DNA of 64,000 nucleotides from Deltaproteobacteria bacterium. GTDB lineage: Bacteria; UBA10199; JACPAL01. The notes under the pieces are model-generated. The model saw only the letters and a program-made list of their open reading frames with translations. It did not search any database and was not told the DNA's origin. The DNA is taken from positions 1 through 64,000 of the forward strand of contig JACPAK010000009.1 in assembly GCA_016180845.1 (NCBI GenBank), written 5' to 3'. The position numbers and the translations under genes were made by a program. Positions 3,515 through 22,736 of the stretch are shown piece by piece. Positions within the stretch are counted from its first letter, which is position 1. Every line of letters starts with the position of its first letter.

Positions 3515-4177
3515 ATGGGACAGAAAACGGACCCCCGTGGATTTCGATTAGGGATAACGCGTACTTGGGATTCTCAATGGTATGCGAGGAAAGACTACGC
3601 CAAGTATGTGGCTCAGGATGTCAAGATCCGTCAGCTTGTTAAAGAGAAGTTGTCTCATGCGGGTGTGTCTCGAATTGAGATCGAGAGACGTGGTTCAAAG
3701 ATTACGGTAAAAATTCACACGGCACGCCCTGGTTTGGTGATTGGGAAAAAGGGGACAGGGATTGATGCGTTGAAGGTGGAGCTCTCTTCTTTGATTCAGG
3801 GAGATATTGATGTGACGATTCATGAGGTTCGAAAGGCAGAACTCGATGCGCAGTTGGTCGCTGAAAATATTGCCATGCAGCTCGAGCGGCGTATTGCCTT
3901 TCGTCGAGCGATGAAAAAGGCGGTAACACAGGCTCTGAAATTTGGTGCCTTGGGTATCAAGGTCAAGTGTGGTGGGCGACTTGCGGGGGCTGAGATCGCA
4001 AGGAAAGAATGGTATCGGGAGGGGAGGGTTCCTCTTCATACACTTCGGGCAGATATTGATTATGGACAGGCAGAGGCGCTCACAACCTATGGGAAGATTG
4101 GAGTGAAGTGTTGGATCTACAAAGGAAACGTTTTTGGAAAAGGAATTGAAAAACAGGAAGCGGAGGCAGTGAAATAA
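3515..4177 (+). CDS. rpsC: 30S ribosomal protein S3
   Basis: A 220-residue S3 with N-terminal [20 protein letters not shown], a KH domain ([17 protein letters not shown], with the GxxG loop) and the C-terminal GVKCWIYKG segment. S3 lies at the mRNA entry channel and contributes to helicase activity of the ribosome. It starts directly at the rplV stop and ends one base before rplP, so coupling is tight. Confidence 0.98.
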
Positions 4178-4600
4178 ATGTTACAACCGGCACGGCTCAA
4201 ATTTATGAAGCTGCAGAAGGGTCGGATTCGTGGGAATGCGACTCGAGGATTCCGTTTGAGTTTTGGTGATTATGGTCTTCAGTCCCTTGAGCGTGGGCTT
4301 GTCACAGCCCGGCAGATTGAGGCGAGTCGTCTGGCGATGGCTCGTTTTATGAAGAAGGGCGGGAAAGTTTGGATAAGAATTTTCCCTGATAAACCGATTA
4401 CGAAAAAACCTGCTGAAACACGCATGGGAAAAGGGAAGGGATCTGTTGAAGGCTGGGGAGCAGTTGTGAAGCCGGGACGGGTCTTGTTTGAACTGGAAGG
4501 TCTGGAGGCGAGTGAGGCGCACGCTGCCTTAAAATTGGCGGCCGACAAACTCCCCGTTCTGACCCATTTTATTACAAGAGAAAAATTCAGGGAATTTTAG
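4178..4600 (+). CDS. rplP: 50S ribosomal protein L16
   Basis: A 140-residue L16 ([50 protein letters not shown]). L16 binds near the A-site tRNA and organises the A and P sites. It starts with ATG right after the rpsC stop. The N-terminus begins [20 protein letters not shown], slightly different from the usual RTKFRKQHRGR pattern but clearly the family. Confidence 0.97.
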
Positions 4601-4613
4601 AGAGAGTGTGATC

Positions 4614-4802
4614 ATGCATAAGGCGAGTGAAATAAAAGAGAAGAAACCAGAGGAGCTTATCCTTTTGGAGAGAGATTTGCGTCGGGAGCTTGGCGAACTT
4701 CAATTGAAGGTACGTATGGGCACGACCGCCTCAACAGCTCGTCTTGGCCAGATTCGGAGAGAGATTGCTCGAATTTTAACAATTCGGAGGGAAAAACAAT
4801 GA
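4614..4802 (+). CDS. rpmC: 50S ribosomal protein L29
   Basis: A 62-residue helical L29 with the typical SEIKEKKPEELILLERDLRR pattern and a C-terminal Q-IRREIARILTI-R helix. L29 sits beside L23 at the tunnel exit. GTG 4608 is in frame upstream, but ATG 4614 has AGAGAG seven bases upstream and gives the family N-terminus (MHKASEIKEK). The stop overlaps the rpsQ start by four bases. Confidence 0.93.
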   Translation: MHKASEIKEKKPEELILLERDLRRELGELQLKVRMGTTASTARLGQIRREIARILTIRREKQ

Positions 4803-5065
4803 GTCGTCGAACTCAGGTAGGGCGTGTGCTTAGTCATAAAATGCAGAAAACCGCCATTGTTATCGTTGAAAGACGTACGCCTGAATTGCGGACAGGGAAG
4901 GTTGTTCTTCAACAGAAGAAATACAAGGTTCACGATGAGAGTGATGAGACGCAAGCTGGAGATGAGGTATTGATCGAAGAATCCCGTCCCTTGTCTCGTG
5001 AAAAGAGGTGGAGAATTCTAAAGGTTTTGAAAAAGGCTTATGCTGAAGCTGGAGGGCAGGCTTAA
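4799..5065 (+). CDS. rpsQ: 30S ribosomal protein S17
   Basis: An 88-residue OB-fold S17 with the conserved [17 protein letters not shown] start, [20 protein letters not shown] core and [12 protein letters not shown]. It is an early 16S rRNA-binding assembly protein. It overlaps rpmC (ATGA) and rplN (TAATG), so translation is probably coupled across all three genes. Confidence 0.97.
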
Positions 5066-5433
5066 TGATTCAGACGGAAACAGTTTGTGATTCGGCGGAT
5101 AATTCAGGCGCGAAAAAACTTCTCTGCATCCGCGTTTTGGGAGGCTCCTACAGGAGGTATGCATCCCTGGGGGATCTCATTGTGGTTTCTGTCAAGGAGG
5201 CCTTGCCAAATTCAAAGGTTAAAAAAGGAGATGTCAAGAGGGCAGTGATAGTCCGGTGCGCCAAAGAATATCGAAGGAGTGACGGTTCTTATATCCGCTT
5301 CGATGATAATTCAGTGGTGCTTCTGGATCAGGCAGGCGAGCCGATCGGAACTCGTATTTTTGGTCCTGTGGCTCGGGAACTGCGAGCTAAGAATTTCACA
5401 AAGATTATCTCGTTAGCTCCGGAGGTTTTATAA
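5065..5433 (+). CDS. rplN: 50S ribosomal protein L14
   Basis: A 122-residue L14, the usual length. It begins [19 protein letters not shown] and contains the signature [34 protein letters not shown] and [14 protein letters not shown]14 forms an intersubunit bridge and is the binding site of RsfS. One base is shared with the rpsQ stop. Confidence 0.98.
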
Positions 5434-5434
5434 A

Positions 5435-5743
5435 ATGATTCGTAAGGGTGACAACGTTATTGTGACGACTGGAAAAGAAAAGGGGAAGATTGCGAAGGTC
5501 ATTGCCATTTTCCCGAGGGAAAGCTCTGCCCTTTTGGAAAAGCTTAACAAGGTCAAGCGGCATCAGAAACCGACAGCCAAACTTCGCCAGGGAGGTATTG
5601 TTGAGAAAGAGGCGCCGATTCATGTTTCAAAAATGATGCTTTACTGCTCGAAATGTTCCAAAGGGGTGCGGGTTGGTTCTAAAGTGATCGATGGTGGAAA
5701 GAAGGTCCGGTTTTGTCGCAAGTGTCAGGAGGTATTTGCTTAA
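5435..5743 (+). CDS. rplX: 50S ribosomal protein L24, zinc-ribbon form
   Basis: A 102-residue L24: KOW motif near the N-terminus ([17 protein letters not shown]), then [20 protein letters not shown]. The C-terminal part carries two CxxC pairs (YCSKC around residue 70 and FCRKC near the end), consistent with a zinc ribbon, which many L24 proteins lack. L24 initiates 50S assembly. It begins two bases after the rplN stop. Confidence 0.95.
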
Positions 5744-5744
5744 T

Positions 5745-6284
5745 ATGTCGTTTGAGAAATTTTATAAGGAAAAATGTCTTCCGAAACTTCAAAAAGAGTT
5801 GGCGATTGAGAATTGGATGCGGGTTCCGCGACTTGAAAAAGTTGTGGTCTCCACTTGTCTTAAGGAGGCAACTCAAGACAAGAAGGTTCTGGATCACGCT
5901 GCTCAGGAAATGGCCTTGATCACCGGTCAGCGGCCGGCAGTCACCCGGGCGCGGAAGTCGATTGCGAATTTCAAATTGAGGCAAGGGATGCCGATCGGAT
6001 GCCGTGTTGTTTTGAGGAAAAAGATGATGTTTGAGTTTTTGAATCGCTTGATCAATGTCGCCCTTCCGAGAATGCGGGACTTTCATGGTGTTTCTCCAAA
6101 GGGTTTTGACGGTCAGGGAAATTATACATTGGGAATTACAGAACAGATTGTTTTTCCGGAAATTGAATATGACAAGATTGAGAGGGTCTGGGGAATGAAT
6201 GTGACTATTGTGACGAGTGCAAAGAGTGATGCAGAGGCCAAGGTGCTTCTTCGTCTTTTGGGAGTGCCTTTTAGGGAGAACTAA
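5745..6284 (+). CDS. rplE: 50S ribosomal protein L5
   Basis: A 179-residue L5 beginning [20 protein letters not shown], with [19 protein letters not shown] and [11 protein letters not shown]; it binds 5S rRNA. The frame is open upstream to 5691, but that stretch lies inside rplX; ATG 5745, just after the rplX stop and 11 bases after AGGAGG, fits the family start. Normal length. Confidence 0.97.
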
Positions 6285-15884: not shown

Positions 15885-15931
15885 TTGACAAGCCCCCTGT
15901 TTGCCCGTAAGCGATATTGAAATTCATTTTC
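15885..15931 (+). promoter_or_regulatory. fur promoter -35 element and autoregulatory Fur box
   Basis: A perfect -35 hexamer TTGACA lies at 15885-15890. Downstream, GATATTGAAATTCATTTTC at 15913-15931 matches the 19-base Fur consensus (GATAATGATAATCATTATC) at 15 of 19 positions, ending three bases before the preferred fur start codon. A protein bound here would cover the expected -10 and transcription start, so this looks like negative autoregulation. The -10 hexamer itself is not obvious. Fur versus Zur cannot be decided from one site. Confidence 0.75.
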
Positions 15932-15933
15932 AT

Positions 15934-16377
15934 ATGGAATCCAAGATCGAAAACTACCGCCGCTATTTGAGAGACCATGGTCTCAAGTCGACCAAGCAAC
16001 GAGACCTGATTGTCGCCGAGTTTTTTCAAAAACATCAGCATCTGACTGTCGAGGAGCTTTTAGGGCTTGTTCGAAAAAAAGATGCAACGGTTGGCTATGC
16101 GACTGTTTATCGGACCTTGAAATTACTGACAGAGTCTGGTTTGGCCTTCAAGAGGGAGTTTGGGGGAGGGAAGGCGAAATTTGAGCATTTGACAGACAGG
16201 CATCATGATCACCTCATTTGTGTGCGGTGCGGGGATATCATTGAGTTTGAGAATCATCGGATCGAGGAACTTCAGAAAAAGGTCTGCAAAAATTATCGTT
16301 TTCAGTTAATTCATCATAAAATGGAGCTCTACGGTTTTTGTCAGAGATGTCGACAGCGAGGACAAAGAGATGCTTGA
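15934..16377 (+). CDS. fur: Fur-family metal-dependent repressor
   Basis: A 147-residue Fur-family protein: winged helix (VGYATVYRTLKLLTESGLAF is the recognition region), metal site with HHDHLICVRCG, and a second Cys pair FCQRC near the C-terminus for structural zinc. TTG 15901 is in frame, but ATG 15934 fits the family length and lies directly after the Fur box. No Shine-Dalgarno precedes it. It overlaps the ZIP gene by eight bases. Being next to a ZIP transporter, it could be Zur rather than Fur; the two downstream Fur boxes favour Fur. Confidence 0.9.
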   Translation: MESKIENYRRYLRDHGLKSTKQRDLIVAEFFQKHQHLTVEELLGLVRKKDATVGYATVYRTLKLLTESGLAFKREFGGGKAKFEHLTDRHHDHLICVRCGDIIEFENHRIEELQKKVCKNYRFQLIHHKMELYGFCQRCRQRGQRDA

Positions 16378-17458
16378 TATCGATCTGGGAACAATTCTTT
16401 TTGGAGGGGCTATTGCTGGCTTCACGATTTATCTCGGACTCCCGATTGTTTTTTTAAGGGTATCGGATCGTCTTCGTCTTTTCTTAAGTGCTGCGTCTGT
16501 TGGGATTCTCCTCTATCTCTTTGTCGAGATCTCCTATCATGTCATCGAACAGATTGAATCGGCGATGAAGCTGACTATTCTAGGTTACCGCTCTGTATCT
16601 GATGTCGTCTCTCTGGTTCTTATTTTTGTCGCCGGTTTTGCGTTGTCTCTCTTGAGTCTCCTTGGGTTCGAGGCGTTTGTGATTCGGCAGAATGGAGGTC
16701 AGCCAAAGTCGCCAACTCATTTGGCCCTGATGATCGCTGTTGGCATTGGTCTTCATAACTTTAGCGAAGGGCTTGTGATTGGTCAGCAGTTTGCCAGTGG
16801 CGCCTTGTCGCTGGGTTATCTTCTCGTTATCGGATTTGCCCTTCACAATGCGACGGAAGGTTTTGGGATCGCCGGTCCTTTGTCGAATCATCGTCCTTCA
16901 GTTTTGTTTGTGATACTTCTTGGTCTTATCGGAGGTGGGCCTACTTTTCTGGGTACCTTTGTGGGGAGTCAGTGGACCTCTGAGCCGGTTGAGACTCTCT
17001 TTCTTTCCCTTGCGGCAGGGGCGATTCTCTATATCGTGGGTGAATTGATTCATCTTGGGAAGCTTAAAGGGGCCCATATGACCGCCACGATGGGGCTCCT
17101 GGTCGGTTTTTTCCTCGCCTTTGGGTCTGATTTAGTCATTGAGGGGGCAACAACCGTTGGCTTCTTAAAAGAGGCAGATCAAAAGGAGATCCAGATGCAT
17201 GCGGGGGACTATTTTTTTGAACCACGAGAAATTCATCTAAAAACGGGGGAGGCGACAAAAATTCTTATTGAAAATCGTGGTGAAGTTGAGCATGAGATAG
17301 AGATCCTTGGGATGGGTGAAGAGATCGAGCAGGTGATTCCGTGGCAGGGGAAAGGGGTGGTTCTGCTCTATCCGCGTCATGCAGGGCGGTATCCCTTTAT
17401 CTGTGATATGCCGGGTCATCTGGCTCAGGGGATGCGCGGAACGCTCGTCGTAGAATAG
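16370..17458 (+). CDS. ZIP metal transporter fused to a C-terminal cupredoxin domain
   Basis: A 362-residue fusion. Residues 1-265 form about eight membrane segments with the two ZIP metal-site helices: IGLHNFSEG (His129, Asn130, Glu133) and FALHNATEGFGIAGP (His159, Asn160, Glu163). Residues 270-362 are a cupredoxin-like domain with a complete type-1 copper set: His308 (VEHEIEI), Cys345, His350 and Met355 (FICDMPGHLAQGM). ZIP proteins import Zn2+, Fe2+ or Mn2+. The cupredoxin would lie outside the cytoplasm and might oxidise or shuttle the metal (inference). Overlap with fur shows co-transcription. Confidence 0.88.
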   Translation: MLDIDLGTILFGGAIAGFTIYLGLPIVFLRVSDRLRLFLSAASVGILLYLFVEISYHVIEQIESAMKLTILGYRSVSDVVSLVLIFVAGFALSLLSLLGFEAFVIRQNGGQPKSPTHLALMIAVGIGLHNFSEGLVIGQQFASGALSLGYLLVIGFALHNATEGFGIAGPLSNHRPSVLFVILLGLIGGGPTFLGTFVGSQWTSEPVETLFLSLAAGAILYIVGELIHLGKLKGAHMTATMGLLVGFFLAFGSDLVIEGATTVGFLKEADQKEIQMHAGDYFFEPREIHLKTGEATKILIENRGEVEHEIEILGMGEEIEQVIPWQGKGVVLLYPRHAGRYPFICDMPGHLAQGMRGTLVVE

Positions 17459-17479: not shown

Positions 17480-17797
17480 GTGGCTACTGGTTGGTTGGAG
17501 CTGCCCATTTTGTTGCGAAAGTGGTTAGCCTCTCAAATAGCACCAGAGGAAATTCAGACAAGGAAGTCGGAACGAGACGTCGCGTCTCATTTTAACTCCG
17601 AGTTTTTTGAAGAACGAGTGCGCCCAGGCCATTCAATCCTGCTGGGTAAATTCCAGATCGGCAATGAAATTATTCAGGTAACCCACTCTCAGTGGGAAGG
17701 TGACTCTTATCTCATGAGTCTCCAGCAACGTAAGGAAATTCTGCGTATGACTGTTCTTGAAAGGATTAAGAAAGCCCCCACAGTTGGCTCAGCCTAA
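17480..17797 (+). CDS. Hypothetical protein
   Basis: A 105-residue protein I do not recognise. It starts with GTG 17480 after GAGAGGAGACGG and ends one base before the exbB start. No signal peptide or membrane segment; it is a mixed, fairly charged soluble protein with LPILLRKWLASQIAPEE near the N-terminus. Position between the ZIP fusion and exbB suggests it belongs to the same metal-uptake operon, but no function can be assigned. Confidence 0.7.
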   Translation: MATGWLELPILLRKWLASQIAPEEIQTRKSERDVASHFNSEFFEERVRPGHSILLGKFQIGNEIIQVTHSQWEGDSYLMSLQQRKEILRMTVLERIKKAPTVGSA

Positions 17798-17798
17798 T

Positions 17799-18416
17799 AT
17801 GTTTGAAAAACTGATTTATTTCTTCCAAGTCAGCGGCTGGACCATGTATGGGATCGCCATTTGTTCTATCCTCGCCTTGGCAGTTTTTCTCGAGCGACTG
17901 TGGAGCCTTCGCTCCAGTCAAATCATTCCGAAGGGGCTCTCAGTTGAGCTGGAGGATTTTGTTCGCAGGAATCAGCTTCCCGAGGCGATTACTCTTTGTA
18001 AAAAGGTTGATTCCCCTCTCGCAAGGATCATTCAGACAGGACTCGAGAATGCCGGAAAAAGTCGAGAGCAGATCAAGGAGATCGTCAGTGAGGTCGGTCA
18101 GAGAGAAACCAACCATCTCGAACGTTATCTCCCTGTCCTGAACACAACAATTTCTGTCGCTCCGATGCTTGGATTTTTGGGGACGGTTTTGGGGATGGTC
18201 CAGCTTTTTACGAGTGTTGCTGAGATTGGAGAGGTGACCAATATCGGGATGATCGCCGATGGGATTTATAAGGCCCTTTACACAACGATTGCCGGACTGA
18301 CTGTGGCTATTCCAGCGACGATTTTTTATCGGTTTCTTATGTCAAGAATCGATCGTCTCATTTTCGCGATGGAAGAGGTTTCATTGAAGATCGTTGATTT
18401 AATCAAGCAGGAGTGA
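17799..18416 (+). CDS. exbB: ExbB/TolQ/MotA-family proton channel
   Basis: A 205-residue inner-membrane protein with three membrane segments: one at residues 12-30 and two near the C-terminus, around the signature PMLGFLGTVLGMVQLF and the following TTIAGLTVAIPATIFY. It forms the proton-driven motor with ExbD that energises TonB or Tol systems. ATG 17799 immediately follows the upstream stop (TAATATG). Its place beside Fur and a Fur-box porin favours ExbB over TolQ. Confidence 0.9.
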   Translation: MFEKLIYFFQVSGWTMYGIAICSILALAVFLERLWSLRSSQIIPKGLSVELEDFVRRNQLPEAITLCKKVDSPLARIIQTGLENAGKSREQIKEIVSEVGQRETNHLERYLPVLNTTISVAPMLGFLGTVLGMVQLFTSVAEIGEVTNIGMIADGIYKALYTTIAGLTVAIPATIFYRFLMSRIDRLIFAMEEVSLKIVDLIKQE

Positions 18417-18417
18417 G

Positions 18418-18819
18418 ATGGCCTTCCGCCGGTTTCGCAAAAATGAAGAAGAGGGGATTAACACGACACCTCTTGTTGACGTGATGTTCAACCTCCTCAT
18501 TTTTATTATTATCACCGCTCAGTACAGCAATATCCAGTCGCTCAAGGTGAATCTACCCAAGGCCCAGTCGGGAACCGGTTTGGAAAAGACAGAACAGATT
18601 GTCCTGACACTGACACGTGACGAAAAGATCTACTTGAACGACAAGCCAGTTATTGTGGAAACATTGAAGGAGCAGCTTCAACCCTTTGCCAAAAAGGAAG
18701 ACCAGCCTCGTGTCATTCTTCAGGCGGATGAAGGTTCCACCACCGGCGGGCTTGTTCGTCTCATGGATATCGCCTCTCAAGTGGGCCTGAAAAAAATCTC
18801 AATCGAAACAAGGAAATAG
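18418..18819 (+). CDS. exbD: ExbD/TolR-family motor protein
   Basis: A 133-residue protein: short cytoplasmic start (FRRFRKNEEEGINTTPLVDV), one membrane helix containing the conserved PLVDVMFNLLIFIIITAQY with the proton-path Asp, and a periplasmic domain ending QVGLKKISIETRK. It starts one base after the exbB stop. ExbB-ExbD pairs drive TonB-dependent uptake; a TonB-like protein is encoded at 30495. Confidence 0.92.
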   Translation: MAFRRFRKNEEEGINTTPLVDVMFNLLIFIIITAQYSNIQSLKVNLPKAQSGTGLEKTEQIVLTLTRDEKIYLNDKPVIVETLKEQLQPFAKKEDQPRVILQADEGSTTGGLVRLMDIASQVGLKKISIETRK

Positions 18820-19607: not shown

Positions 19608-19636
19608 TTGACACCTCTCTCTCCTCCAGTTATCCA
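19608..19636 (+). promoter_or_regulatory. Promoter of the porin/flavin cluster
   Basis: A perfect -35 TTGACA at 19608-19613, a 17-base spacer, and a partial -10 TATCCA at 19631-19636. Transcription would start near 19643, just before the Fur box at 19652-19670 and about 48 bases before the porin ATG, which has a good AAGGAGG ribosome-binding site. Confidence 0.65.
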
Positions 19637-19651
19637 ATCGTGACTTTAAAT

Positions 19652-19670
19652 GAAAATGATTTTCAAAATC
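19652..19670 (+). promoter_or_regulatory. Fur box upstream of the porin
   Basis: GAAAATGATTTTCAAAATC matches the 19-base Fur consensus at 14 of 19 positions and lies just downstream of the predicted transcription start. Together with the box before fur it indicates that the porin, FMN-binding protein, membrane protein and apbE are repressed when iron (or another Fur-family metal) is plentiful. Confidence 0.75.
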
Positions 19671-19690
19671 AGTTTCGATAAGGAGGGGCT

Positions 19691-20860
19691 ATGAAAAGAA
19701 TAAGGATATCGTGCGCCTTTATGGGGCTTATGGGGTTCTTGTTTTTGTTTGAGACAGCCTCCAACGCTGTGCCTAAGGTGGAGCTGGCAGAAGAAGAGGT
19801 GGCGGCAGGGGAAGGGCATCCTACAAGTCGCTGGGACCGGTTTCATCTCTTTGGCTATGGTGAGCTTCACTACAATAATCGGATCGGGTCAGTCGATGAT
19901 GATATCGATTTTCATCGGATGGTTTTGGGGTTCGGATATGATTTTACCGAGAAATGGAATTTCAGGACGGAGCTTGACTTCGAGCATGCCTTTACGGAAC
20001 CGGAGCTTGAATTCGCTTATGTCGATTACCTTCACCGGCCGGGACTGAATCTTAGGGCAGGGAGTATCCTTGTGCCTATGGGGGTGATTAACCAGCATCA
20101 CGAGCCACCGCTTTTCTACAGCGTGGAGAGACCTGAGGTTTATCGAGTCTTGATCCCGACGACATGGCAGGAGGGGGGCGCGGGGCTCTACGGTAGCCTT
20201 GGCGATTTTCATTACGAACTGTATGGCCTCTCAAGTCTCAATGCGACCGGATTTACCGGAAGTACCGGTCTTCGAGGGGGCAGGGGTCATGTCGGAGAGG
20301 CGCCTGGTCGCGATTTCGGCGGGGCGGGTCGACTCGAGTATCGAGGATTGCCCGGTTTTCGTTTGGGCAGTTCCCTCTTCACAGCGAATACCGGTCAGGG
20401 GAATGCAACGATTGATGGCGGTTTTCTGGCCCTTATGGAAGGGGATGCGAAGTATAGCGTCGAAGGATTCGACCTGGACGGAATTTTTGTCTACAGCCAT
20501 CTTTCTGATGCGGGATTGATTAATACCGTTCGCGTCGCCACCGACGCCACTTTTACCAATTTCGTGGCGACTGAGATGATCGGTTGGTATGCGGAAGCGG
20601 CGTACCATCTCTTCTATCATCTATGGCCAGAGACAAAACAGGACCTGGTTCTCTTTAGCCGATTCGAAGATTTTAACACCCAGCGCAGCATGCCGTCCGG
20701 TTTTGCGGCCAATCCGGCGAATGACCGCAATACCTGGACCTCCGGCATCTCGTACCTGCCGATTCCGCAGGTCGCCTTGAAGGCTGATTACATGGCGAAT
20801 TGGAACGCCGTCAACGGCGGTACGGATCAGTTTAATCTTGGCGTCGGGTTCATGTATTGA
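19691..20860 (+). CDS. Outer-membrane beta-barrel porin (OprO/OprP-like)
   Basis: A 389-residue protein with a signal peptide of about 26 residues (FLFLFETASNA) and many short alternating strands rich in Tyr, Phe and Gly, ending in an aromatic strand (LGVGFMY). The RAGSILVPMGVINQHHEPPL segment resembles the phosphate-selective porin O/P superfamily. A His/Glu-rich mature start follows. Fur-box control suggests it imports an iron- or metal-related solute rather than phosphate; the substrate is unknown. The stop overlaps the next open frame. Confidence 0.8.
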   Translation: MKRIRISCAFMGLMGFLFLFETASNAVPKVELAEEEVAAGEGHPTSRWDRFHLFGYGELHYNNRIGSVDDDIDFHRMVLGFGYDFTEKWNFRTELDFEHAFTEPELEFAYVDYLHRPGLNLRAGSILVPMGVINQHHEPPLFYSVERPEVYRVLIPTTWQEGGAGLYGSLGDFHYELYGLSSLNATGFTGSTGLRGGRGHVGEAPGRDFGGAGRLEYRGLPGFRLGSSLFTANTGQGNATIDGGFLALMEGDAKYSVEGFDLDGIFVYSHLSDAGLINTVRVATDATFTNFVATEMIGWYAEAAYHLFYHLWPETKQDLVLFSRFEDFNTQRSMPSGFAANPANDRNTWTSGISYLPIPQVALKADYMANWNAVNGGTDQFNLGVGFMY

Positions 20861-20880
20861 TATGCGATCCTATATCACTA

Positions 20881-21396
20881 ATGCCTTTTATTTCATCCTT
20901 TATTCTCATCTTTCTCCTGACAGGAAATCTCTCGGCGCAGACCGTTTACCTCAAGCCCGAAGAGGCGTTGAGGCTTCACTTTAAGGATTCAGCGGAAGTG
21001 ACTCCCGATAAAAAGATTCTTTTGGAATCGCAAACAGTCGATTTCAAAAAAAAGACCGGACAGGCACCACCTAAAACCGATTGGATTTTTTATGTTGCGA
21101 AGAGCGGTAAAAATGTTGACGGCTATGCCTTGATTGATAACGAAATCGGCAAAACAGAGCCGATCACATTCATGACTGTTTTTTCCCCGAAGGGGGAGGT
21201 GATCGCGGTCGAGGTCCTTGTCTATCGCGAGTCGGTTGGGAGCGAGGTTCGTCAGAAAAGTTTTTTAAAACAATTTTTGAAAAAGGGTGCTAGAGACGTG
21301 AAGCCGATCACGGGGGCGACACTCTCTTCCCGGGCGTTGGTGAAGGGAGTGAAAAGGGGAGAAGTGCTTTGGAAGATTTTTTATGGAAAAAATTAG
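20881..21396 (+). CDS. Exported FMN-binding domain protein (covalent flavin carrier)
   Basis: A 171-residue secreted protein. From ATG 20881 it has a clean signal peptide (PFISSFILIFLLTGNLSAQ); TTG 20857 is in frame but would only add residues before it. The C-terminal half has the FMN-binding fold with the flavinylation motif PITGATLSSRAL, whose second Thr is the usual site of phosphoester-linked FMN in NqrC/RnfG proteins. An ApbE flavin transferase is encoded two genes downstream, which strongly supports covalent FMN. Likely a periplasmic electron carrier. Confidence 0.85.
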   Translation: MPFISSFILIFLLTGNLSAQTVYLKPEEALRLHFKDSAEVTPDKKILLESQTVDFKKKTGQAPPKTDWIFYVAKSGKNVDGYALIDNEIGKTEPITFMTVFSPKGEVIAVEVLVYRESVGSEVRQKSFLKQFLKKGARDVKPITGATLSSRALVKGVKRGEVLWKIFYGKN

Positions 21397-21859
21397 ACTG
21401 TCAGCCCTTCCTATTTCAGTCAAGATTCTGATCACCTGTTTTGTGATGGCGATCGGTGTCGGTTATTCCATCTCCATCCTGCAGGTCCGGGCAAGGACCC
21501 ACCTTGATCGAGGAGAGACGGTCAGGCATTTCCGTGGCTCGGAGCAAAATCCGGAGGTTTATCTCCCACAGAGTACCGGCACGATGGTAGCGATCGCCCA
21601 TGTCCACAGCTTTAGCCAACCGGTTGTAGTGGGGCTCCTGGCGTTTCTCTTTCTTTTCACCCCCCTTTCCGAAGGGTATAAGACAAGCTGGATCTTGATT
21701 TCCTTTGCAGGCAGTTTGACGAATATCCTTTCCCCCTGGTTCATTCGCGATATCTCACCCCATGCTGTTTATCTTCTCTATCTTTCCGGAGGGGCAATGC
21801 TTGTATCATTTCTCGTGATGGCTCTTTCTATTATTCATGAAACTTGGAAAAAAGCCTAG
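21383..21859 (+). CDS. Small membrane protein of the flavin cluster
   Basis: A 158-residue protein with about four membrane helices (residues 14-33, 72-94, 101-120, 126-150). The loop after helix 1 contains AIAHVHSFSQPVV at the membrane edge, with two His that could hold a metal or haem. I do not recognise the family. It overlaps the FMN protein by 14 bases and apbE by 23, so the three are translated as a unit. A membrane electron-transfer partner for the flavoprotein is a reasonable inference, not shown. Confidence 0.75.
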   Translation: MEKIRLSALPISVKILITCFVMAIGVGYSISILQVRARTHLDRGETVRHFRGSEQNPEVYLPQSTGTMVAIAHVHSFSQPVVVGLLAFLFLFTPLSEGYKTSWILISFAGSLTNILSPWFIRDISPHAVYLLYLSGGAMLVSFLVMALSIIHETWKKA

Positions 21860-22736
21860 GCTCCTTATTTTCTTTACGCTTTGCCTCTCTGGTTGTTCTC
21901 TGACACAAGTTTTTTCCCGTACTCAAATGCTGATGGGGGATGTGCCGGTATCGATTCAGATTCGGGCCCCGTTTTACCAAAAAGAGAAGGCGTTTGAGGC
22001 GATGGAGGAGGCCTACAAGGTTGCGAGGGGGTTGGAGACGGAATTGAGCGAATTCAAGATCGTGAGTGATACCTCCCGGCTCAATAACGGCAAGGCGGGT
22101 GAGACGATTCCGGTTGGGGCGGCACTTTTCAATCTTCTTAAAACTGCGGAAAAGATTTCGAGAGAGACGAACGGGGCGTTTGACGTCACCTACGCCTCTC
22201 CGAGAGGAATCTCATTTCATGATCTGGAAATTAAGGATTCAGGACGAATGGTTTATTTAAAAAAGAGCGGAATCAAAATTGGCGTTTCCGGTATCGCCAA
22301 GGGTTACATCGTTGATCAAATGAGTGATTCTCTCATCCAACAGGGGTTCAAGGATCACCTCGTCAATGCCGGAGGAGATCTGGGGGCCCACGGGGTTTGG
22401 GAGGTAGGAATTCGCGATCCCCGTCGTGAGGGTTTCTCACTCTGCACGATGACCTTGGAGGATCAATCCGCTTCGACCTCAGGTCTTTATGAAAGGGGAG
22501 AGCATATTATGGATCCCCGAACAAAAAAGAGGGTGAAGCGAAACGATCTCCTGAGTGCAACCGTCATCGGCCCTTCCACGCTCGAGACCGATCCCCTCGC
22601 GACGGCGGCGTTTGTCCTTTCTTCACCTGAAATCGAGGAGCTTTTTTCACAGTCATCTCAAATCGCTCTGTTTCTCGTGGGTGCCGATAAAAAGGTAAGG
22701 AAGATTGGTCTTTCGTCGCTGGAATGTCAGCCCTGA
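21837..22736 (+). CDS. apbE: ApbE-family FAD:protein FMN transferase (lipoprotein)
   Basis: A 299-residue ApbE with a lipoprotein signal (FTLCLSGC lipobox). Family motifs are SGIAKGYIVDQMSDSL, VNAGGDLGAHG, HIMDPRTKKRV and TDPLATAAFVLS. ApbE moves FMN from FAD to a Thr of exported flavoproteins; the substrate here is almost certainly the FMN-binding protein encoded at 20881. It ends the Fur-controlled cluster. Confidence 0.93.
   Translation: MKLGKKPRLLIFFTLCLSGCSLTQVFSRTQMLMGDVPVSIQIRAPFYQKEKAFEAMEEAYKVARGLETELSEFKIVSDTSRLNNGKAGETIPVGAALFNLLKTAEKISRETNGAFDVTYASPRGISFHDLEIKDSGRMVYLKKSGIKIGVSGIAKGYIVDQMSDSLIQQGFKDHLVNAGGDLGAHGVWEVGIRDPRREGFSLCTMTLEDQSASTSGLYERGEHIMDPRTKKRVKRNDLLSATVIGPSTLETDPLATAAFVLSSPEIEELFSQSSQIALFLVGADKKVRKIGLSSLECQP

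Follow-up and report, generated by a model that had tools for sequence, protein, structure and literature searches.

We describe a four-gene cassette in a 64,000-nucleotide window (the whole stretch of DNA analysed here) that, on balance, probably encodes a periplasmic iron (metal) reductase, assimilatory in role and repressed by Fur. The cassette lies on the plus strand and comprises a 389-residue porin (19691..20860) with a signal peptide recognized by eye, an exported flavin mononucleotide (FMN)-binding protein of the FMN_bind family with the flavinylation motif ITGATLSS (20881..21396 from its ATG, a TTG at 20857 being an alternative start), a 158-residue membrane protein with four helices (21383..21859), which belongs to an unnamed family and is labelled MEM here, and an ApbE flavin adenine dinucleotide (FAD):protein FMN transferase (PF02424; 21837..22736), predicted to be a lipoprotein from the lipobox LSGC, seen by eye. 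The FMN_bind and MEM genes overlap by 14 nt and the MEM and ApbE genes by 23 nt. The initial annotation had placed these four genes here as overlapping or nearly contiguous, and open reading frames (ORFs) and Pfam matches agreed with it on both counts. The closest named relatives are Deltaproteobacteria metagenome assemblies.

In the proposed mechanism, iron limitation would cause Fur to release the operon, and the porin would admit small ferric complexes across the outer membrane. In the exported FMN_bind protein, the Thr of ITGAT would receive a covalent FMN from ApbE, and electrons from the quinone pool would pass through MEM, in the inner membrane, to this flavin. The electron site of MEM would include an invariant His-x-His near the periplasmic side, which would belong to a quinol site or bind a b-type haem. 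The flavin would then reduce Fe(III) to Fe(II), which would be imported by FeoB or, in the genome of the window, possibly by a ZIP-cupredoxin transporter encoded beside fur.

This reading is based in part on the association of the cassette genes in many families. A profile search for MEM in 385 genomes, with neighbours counted within 5 kb, gave matches in 48 (18 in the window's class and 30 outside it). An FMN_bind protein was found near MEM in 42 of the 48, comprising 40 separate genes and two FMN-ApbE fusions (L037 and L086), a homologous porin in 33, ApbE in 29 and ExbBD in four. The initial annotation had looked to conservation of gene order, and the cassette order is kept across many families. 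Linkage to FeoB also supports the reductase reading, as feoB was present within four genes and 5 kb of MEM at nine of the 48 loci, in several families: L039, from the window's own order; L033, L035, L044 and L046, from one family of the class; L037, L085 and L086, from family f50; and L111. At L039 the genes run Fur, FeoB, a DtxR/FeoA fusion, FMN_bind and MEM. An apparent MEM/FMN_bind fusion in L111 was dropped, its N-terminal part resembling an out-of-frame reading, and a 639-residue ORF downstream in L042 was rejected as FeoB for want of a Pfam match. Distance matrices of MEM, FMN_bind and porin were correlated (Pearson 0.65–0.71, with no correction for species phylogeny) and were not used as evidence. 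Two loci carry haem-binding motifs beside the cassette genes. At L028, two proteins with a single CxxCH each lie between porin and FMN_bind (4377-5979), which suggests a mixed cytochrome and flavin version; at L107, an ORF with an N-terminal CSSCH followed by barrel-like sequence (3539-4957), Cyc2-like by motif, adjoins an FMN_bind-ApbE fusion, MEM and ExbB.

A putative Fur operator precedes the porin gene at 19646..19676 (plus strand), where a perfect 7-1-7 palindrome, TGAAAATGATTTTCA at 19651-19665, lies within three overlapping Fur-box matches (13-14/19) spaced 6 bp apart and starts 40 bp 5′ of the porin ATG. The initial annotation had noted a Fur box with 14 of 19 matches; that match exists at 19652-19670, but its score alone is not significant, since chance would give 1.4 matches scoring 14/19 or better in 64 kb. 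The pattern TGAWAATNATTWTCA has its sole exact match in the 2.13-Mb genome at the cassette palindrome and, with up to one mismatch, 10 genomic sites as against one for the reversed control pattern; the remaining one-mismatch sites, most of them within ORFs, were not treated as operators. A second Fur-like box, TGAAATTCATTTTCA, is found directly 5′ of fur (15918..15932, plus strand), and in a same-family relative the box TGAAAATCAATTTCA occurs where the fur ORF begins. In a comparative promoter survey, with a box defined as at least 12/14 matches, Fur-like boxes occurred in 12 of 27 cassette-gene promoters in the class and 0 of 25 other promoters (Fisher p = 8e-5), and in other taxa in 8 of 48 cassette promoters compared with 2 of 102 others (p = 0.002). 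The promoter palindrome, kept in relatives, fits membership of a Fur regulon. Binding by Fur and iron-dependent repression are predicted from these sites, and the Fur-family protein encoded at 15940..16377 (plus strand; PF01475, E = 3e-36) is the probable regulator. The concentration of boxes at cassette promoters, with the only exact palindrome among them, is a further ground for the iron reductase reading, and the comparative boxes, together with the FeoB and FeoA/DtxR neighbours, strengthen the Fur control and iron link first suggested from the window. In Nitrospina metagenome-assembled genomes (L047-L052), pairs of porin and FMN_bind genes with Fur-like boxes were also observed, often followed by a gene for a Ysc84-domain protein; MEM was not detected at these loci.

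The main rival takes the Fur boxes at cassette promoters as a sign of cofactor economy, not of iron uptake. Under iron scarcity, the flavinylated protein would replace iron-containing periplasmic cytochromes and serve respiration or another periplasmic reductase. Flavinylation has been proposed to suit iron-poor settings (PMC8238504), and some cassettes (L028 and L107) have c-type haem proteins nearby, but the recurrent porin and the FeoB/FeoA neighbours are left unexplained, and we regard an iron-sparing carrier as rather unlikely.

The flavin-related parts of the proposed reductase match known families. The FMN_bind domain was recovered with PF04205 (E = 2.9e-8; 34.7 bits against a cut-off of 22), and its motif, PITGATLSS, contains a [ST]GA[ST] site whose acceptor Thr is invariant in 17 aligned relatives; with the export signal, judged by eye, this agrees with the earlier description of an exported FMN-binding protein bearing a TGAT motif. 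The ApbE identity was likewise upheld (PF02424, E = 4.6e-44; 151 bits against a cut-off of 25.6), with FMN transfer itself predicted. Because the genome encodes no other FMN_bind protein, ApbE would serve that of the cassette alone among FMN_bind substrates. RnfG and NqrC share the FMN_bind domain with an SGAT-type motif, but the protein here sits with a porin and MEM instead of Rnf or Nqr genes, and it scored 37.3 bits with the rnfG model against a cut-off of 102. Two FMN_bind relatives adjoining MEM, in L110 (4429-5031) and L112 (6498-7088), have lost the flavinylation motif, and in L112 the next gene encodes a PstS-like binding protein (PBP_like_2).

If the substrate were not iron, the porin and flavoprotein could handle another porin-permeant small solute, such as an oxyanion, another metal or an organic acceptor. 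The porin has weak similarity to Porin_O_P (PF07396, E = 2.9e-5 over 68 residues), many loci are without iron genes, and the binding protein of L112 could be read in the same way. However, L112 belongs to the branch whose FMN protein lost its flavinylation motif, and the Fur boxes and FeoB linkage speak for iron, making a different substrate distinctly unlikely.

The AlphaFold2 model of MEM has four helices (predicted local distance difference test score, pLDDT, 92), bearing out a four-helix membrane protein of 158 residues. The 'His-x-His loop' ascribed to it was incorrect, as His73 and His75 lie inside transmembrane (TM) helix 2 (residues 65-90 of the model). All members of the close family share His73 and His75 together with Lys100 and Arg122 of TM3; across 31 diverse members, the only invariant residues are His73 and His75, which is a further basis for assigning MEM a role in the iron reductase. 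From the charge distribution, we infer that the N-terminus is cytoplasmic and that the His-x-His lies in the half of the membrane facing the periplasm. A MEM paralogue in genome G009 (L113, 5700-6404) bears CVSCH, a c-haem motif, in the stretch joining TM1 to TM2, with no FMN_bind gene adjacent. This paralogue is the best hint from sequence that the MEM fold may work in electron transfer, and together with the cytochrome b of quinol-oxidising complexes encoded in the window's genome, it is consistent with passage of quinol electrons through MEM.

No Pfam, NCBIfam or Protein Data Bank (PDB) family matched MEM, in line with the expectation that it would not fall into a family of unrelated known function. 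Pfam scans of 18 members gave no match to NapH, MsrQ, PepSY, DsbD, NQR/RNF or DUF4405 (PF14358), and the same published flavinylation families were absent from the 25 families shown for the 31 diverse members. A plasmid collection yielded no match and a fold search of a viral library nothing significant. Foldseek also returned no significant match, with MAPEG enzymes at the top (best E 0.059, TM-score 0.46-0.49, root-mean-square deviation about 11) and styrene oxide isomerase further down (E 1.7). In the PDB profile search (hmmsearch), the top hit was cytochrome b6, at a non-significant E of 1.9; its alignment placed the first MEM His on the His of SVHRWSAS and the conserved Arg on the Arg of TRFYSLH. 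Using hhalign, MEM and reversed MEM were each set against profiles of cytochrome b, Ni-hydrogenase cytochrome b, ExbB, FMN_bind and Fur, the poorly extracted Ni-hydrogenase set being a weak control. Cytochrome b had the best profile-profile score, yet at a probability of 9.9%, and homology is not claimed. A search for DUF4405 in the class returned mostly cytochrome b-like proteins, and DUF2871, another short family with a His-x-His, gave too few members for comparison. Styrene oxide isomerase is a four-helix trimer, and it and the MAPEG enzymes resemble MEM as small four-helix membrane proteins. In the isomerase, H57 ligates haem b and R111 touches a haem propionate (PMC12502698), loosely recalling His73/75 in TM2 and Arg122 in TM3 of MEM. 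The Foldseek E values for both (0.06-1.7) came without sequence similarity and do not establish homology, so the resemblances to cytochrome b6, MAPEG enzymes and the isomerase are treated as leads, not as membership.

A more speculative reading, less likely than not, is that MEM represents a widespread and novel family of minimal membrane proteins that oxidise quinol with a b-haem (or at a quinone site), which would feed a flavinylated periplasmic iron reductase equipped with its own outer-membrane porin and so permit reductive iron uptake free of siderophore receptors. A role for MEM outside redox chemistry, supplying FAD to ApbE as a flavin exporter or assisting flavinylation, was also considered. 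The MEM gene lies between those of the FMN protein and ApbE, overlapping the latter, and no other exporter was seen in the cassette. Against this, MEM accompanies FMN_bind more often than ApbE, and the intramembrane His-x-His and the haem-bearing paralogue fit redox activity better, making such a role quite improbable.

The porin was modelled as a 16-stranded barrel (AlphaFold2, pLDDT 86) with Foldseek matches to OmpC, OprP, OmpU and OprO (E about 1e-12). A HEPP motif is conserved across the porin family in the stretch linking strands 5 and 6; in such porins, loop 3 is folded into the pore between these strands, and the HEPP segment would correspond to that position. The modelled OmpF/OprP-like structure is thus more in keeping with a solute channel than with a wide conduit for electrons. 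The porin is apparently replaced at four loci (L027, L029, L045 and L105) by another conserved protein, encoded at its position or nearby, whose L027 member matches the barrel families DUF6662 and Phenol_MetA_deg. This replacement suggests that the cassette needs an outer-membrane channel to function. Extracellular electron transfer through a porin wrapped around the flavoprotein, as in porin-cytochrome complexes, would suit the adjoining porin and FMN protein of most loci and the Cyc2-like protein of L107, but it is very improbable given the diffusion-porin model, the single flavin per protein and a Fur control that points to assimilation.

Several observations weigh against a periplasmic iron reductase. 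FeoB linkage is limited to a fifth of the loci, the iron context outside the class extends to only part of them, and MEM stands alone, away from its cassette partners, in L087, L100, L103 and L104. The flavinylation motif is missing from some of the FMN_bind members beside MEM (L110 and L112). MEM is not significantly related to any cytochrome in sequence or fold, and its only two invariant histidines are adjacent in one helix, so that bis-His haem ligation would need an oligomer.

Flavinylation is an accepted third class of extracytosolic electron carrier and, to our knowledge, many apbE clusters are without an identified membrane electron donor. MEM, as a conserved, unnamed protein with an intramembrane His-x-His and ties to a porin and iron regulation, is a testable candidate for that missing donor. 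Past work recognised five classes of membrane component for flavinylation, namely NapH-, MsrQ-, PepSY-, DsbD- and NQR/RNF-like, and found flavinylation clusters beside iron transporters, with PepSY clusters Fur-repressed in some species (Meheust et al. 2021, PMC8238504). Like the cassette, those systems combine ApbE with an inner-membrane protein and a flavinylated extracytosolic domain, and some have Fur or iron-transporter links; they differ in that MEM is a small four-helix family matching none of their Pfam models and that a dedicated porin recurs here, porins being mentioned in the main text of neither PMC8238504 nor PMC11334425. DUF4405/FezC proteins, haem proteins described as flavinylation cytochromes, are likewise small membrane proteins of apbE clusters with histidines as their best-conserved residues and an iron link (PMC11334425), but the six helices and four central histidines of DUF4405 contrast with the four helices and single His-x-His of MEM. 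The iron-linked clusters and haem proteins are precedents that argue for the iron reductase reading. PepSY-type VciB and FoxB also reduce extracytosolic iron at the inner membrane; that class has three helices, DUF2271 or TonB-receptor partners, no named porin partner and no sequence match to MEM. The gene combination was not found in full-text literature searches, which left supplements, preprints and most subscription journals uncovered, so earlier notice is possible. If correct, the proposal would mean that uncultured Deltaproteobacteria-like lineages take up iron by a reductive route, with the porin and FMN protein also present in Nitrospina.

Upstream of the cassette, fur is followed directly by a gene for a ZIP-type metal transporter with a fused C-terminal cupredoxin domain (16370..17458, plus strand), which is associated with the cassette without being part of its core and is a possible Fe(II) importer. 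Further along come genes for ExbB and ExbD (17796..18819, plus strand), a pair that three more genomes of the class carry next to the cassette, and then one for an alpha/beta hydrolase. The order TlpA-fur-ZIP-ExbB is kept in a same-family relative (L225), and a 105-residue protein without a Pfam match, encoded between the ZIP-cupredoxin and ExbB genes (window 17480-17797), is also kept in this relative. The window's genome encodes just one TonB-dependent receptor and one clear copy of FeoB, and an oxidase subunit-3-like ORF, recognised by eye, adjoins feoB. Downstream of the cassette lies a NifU/HesB-like ORF, also identified by eye.

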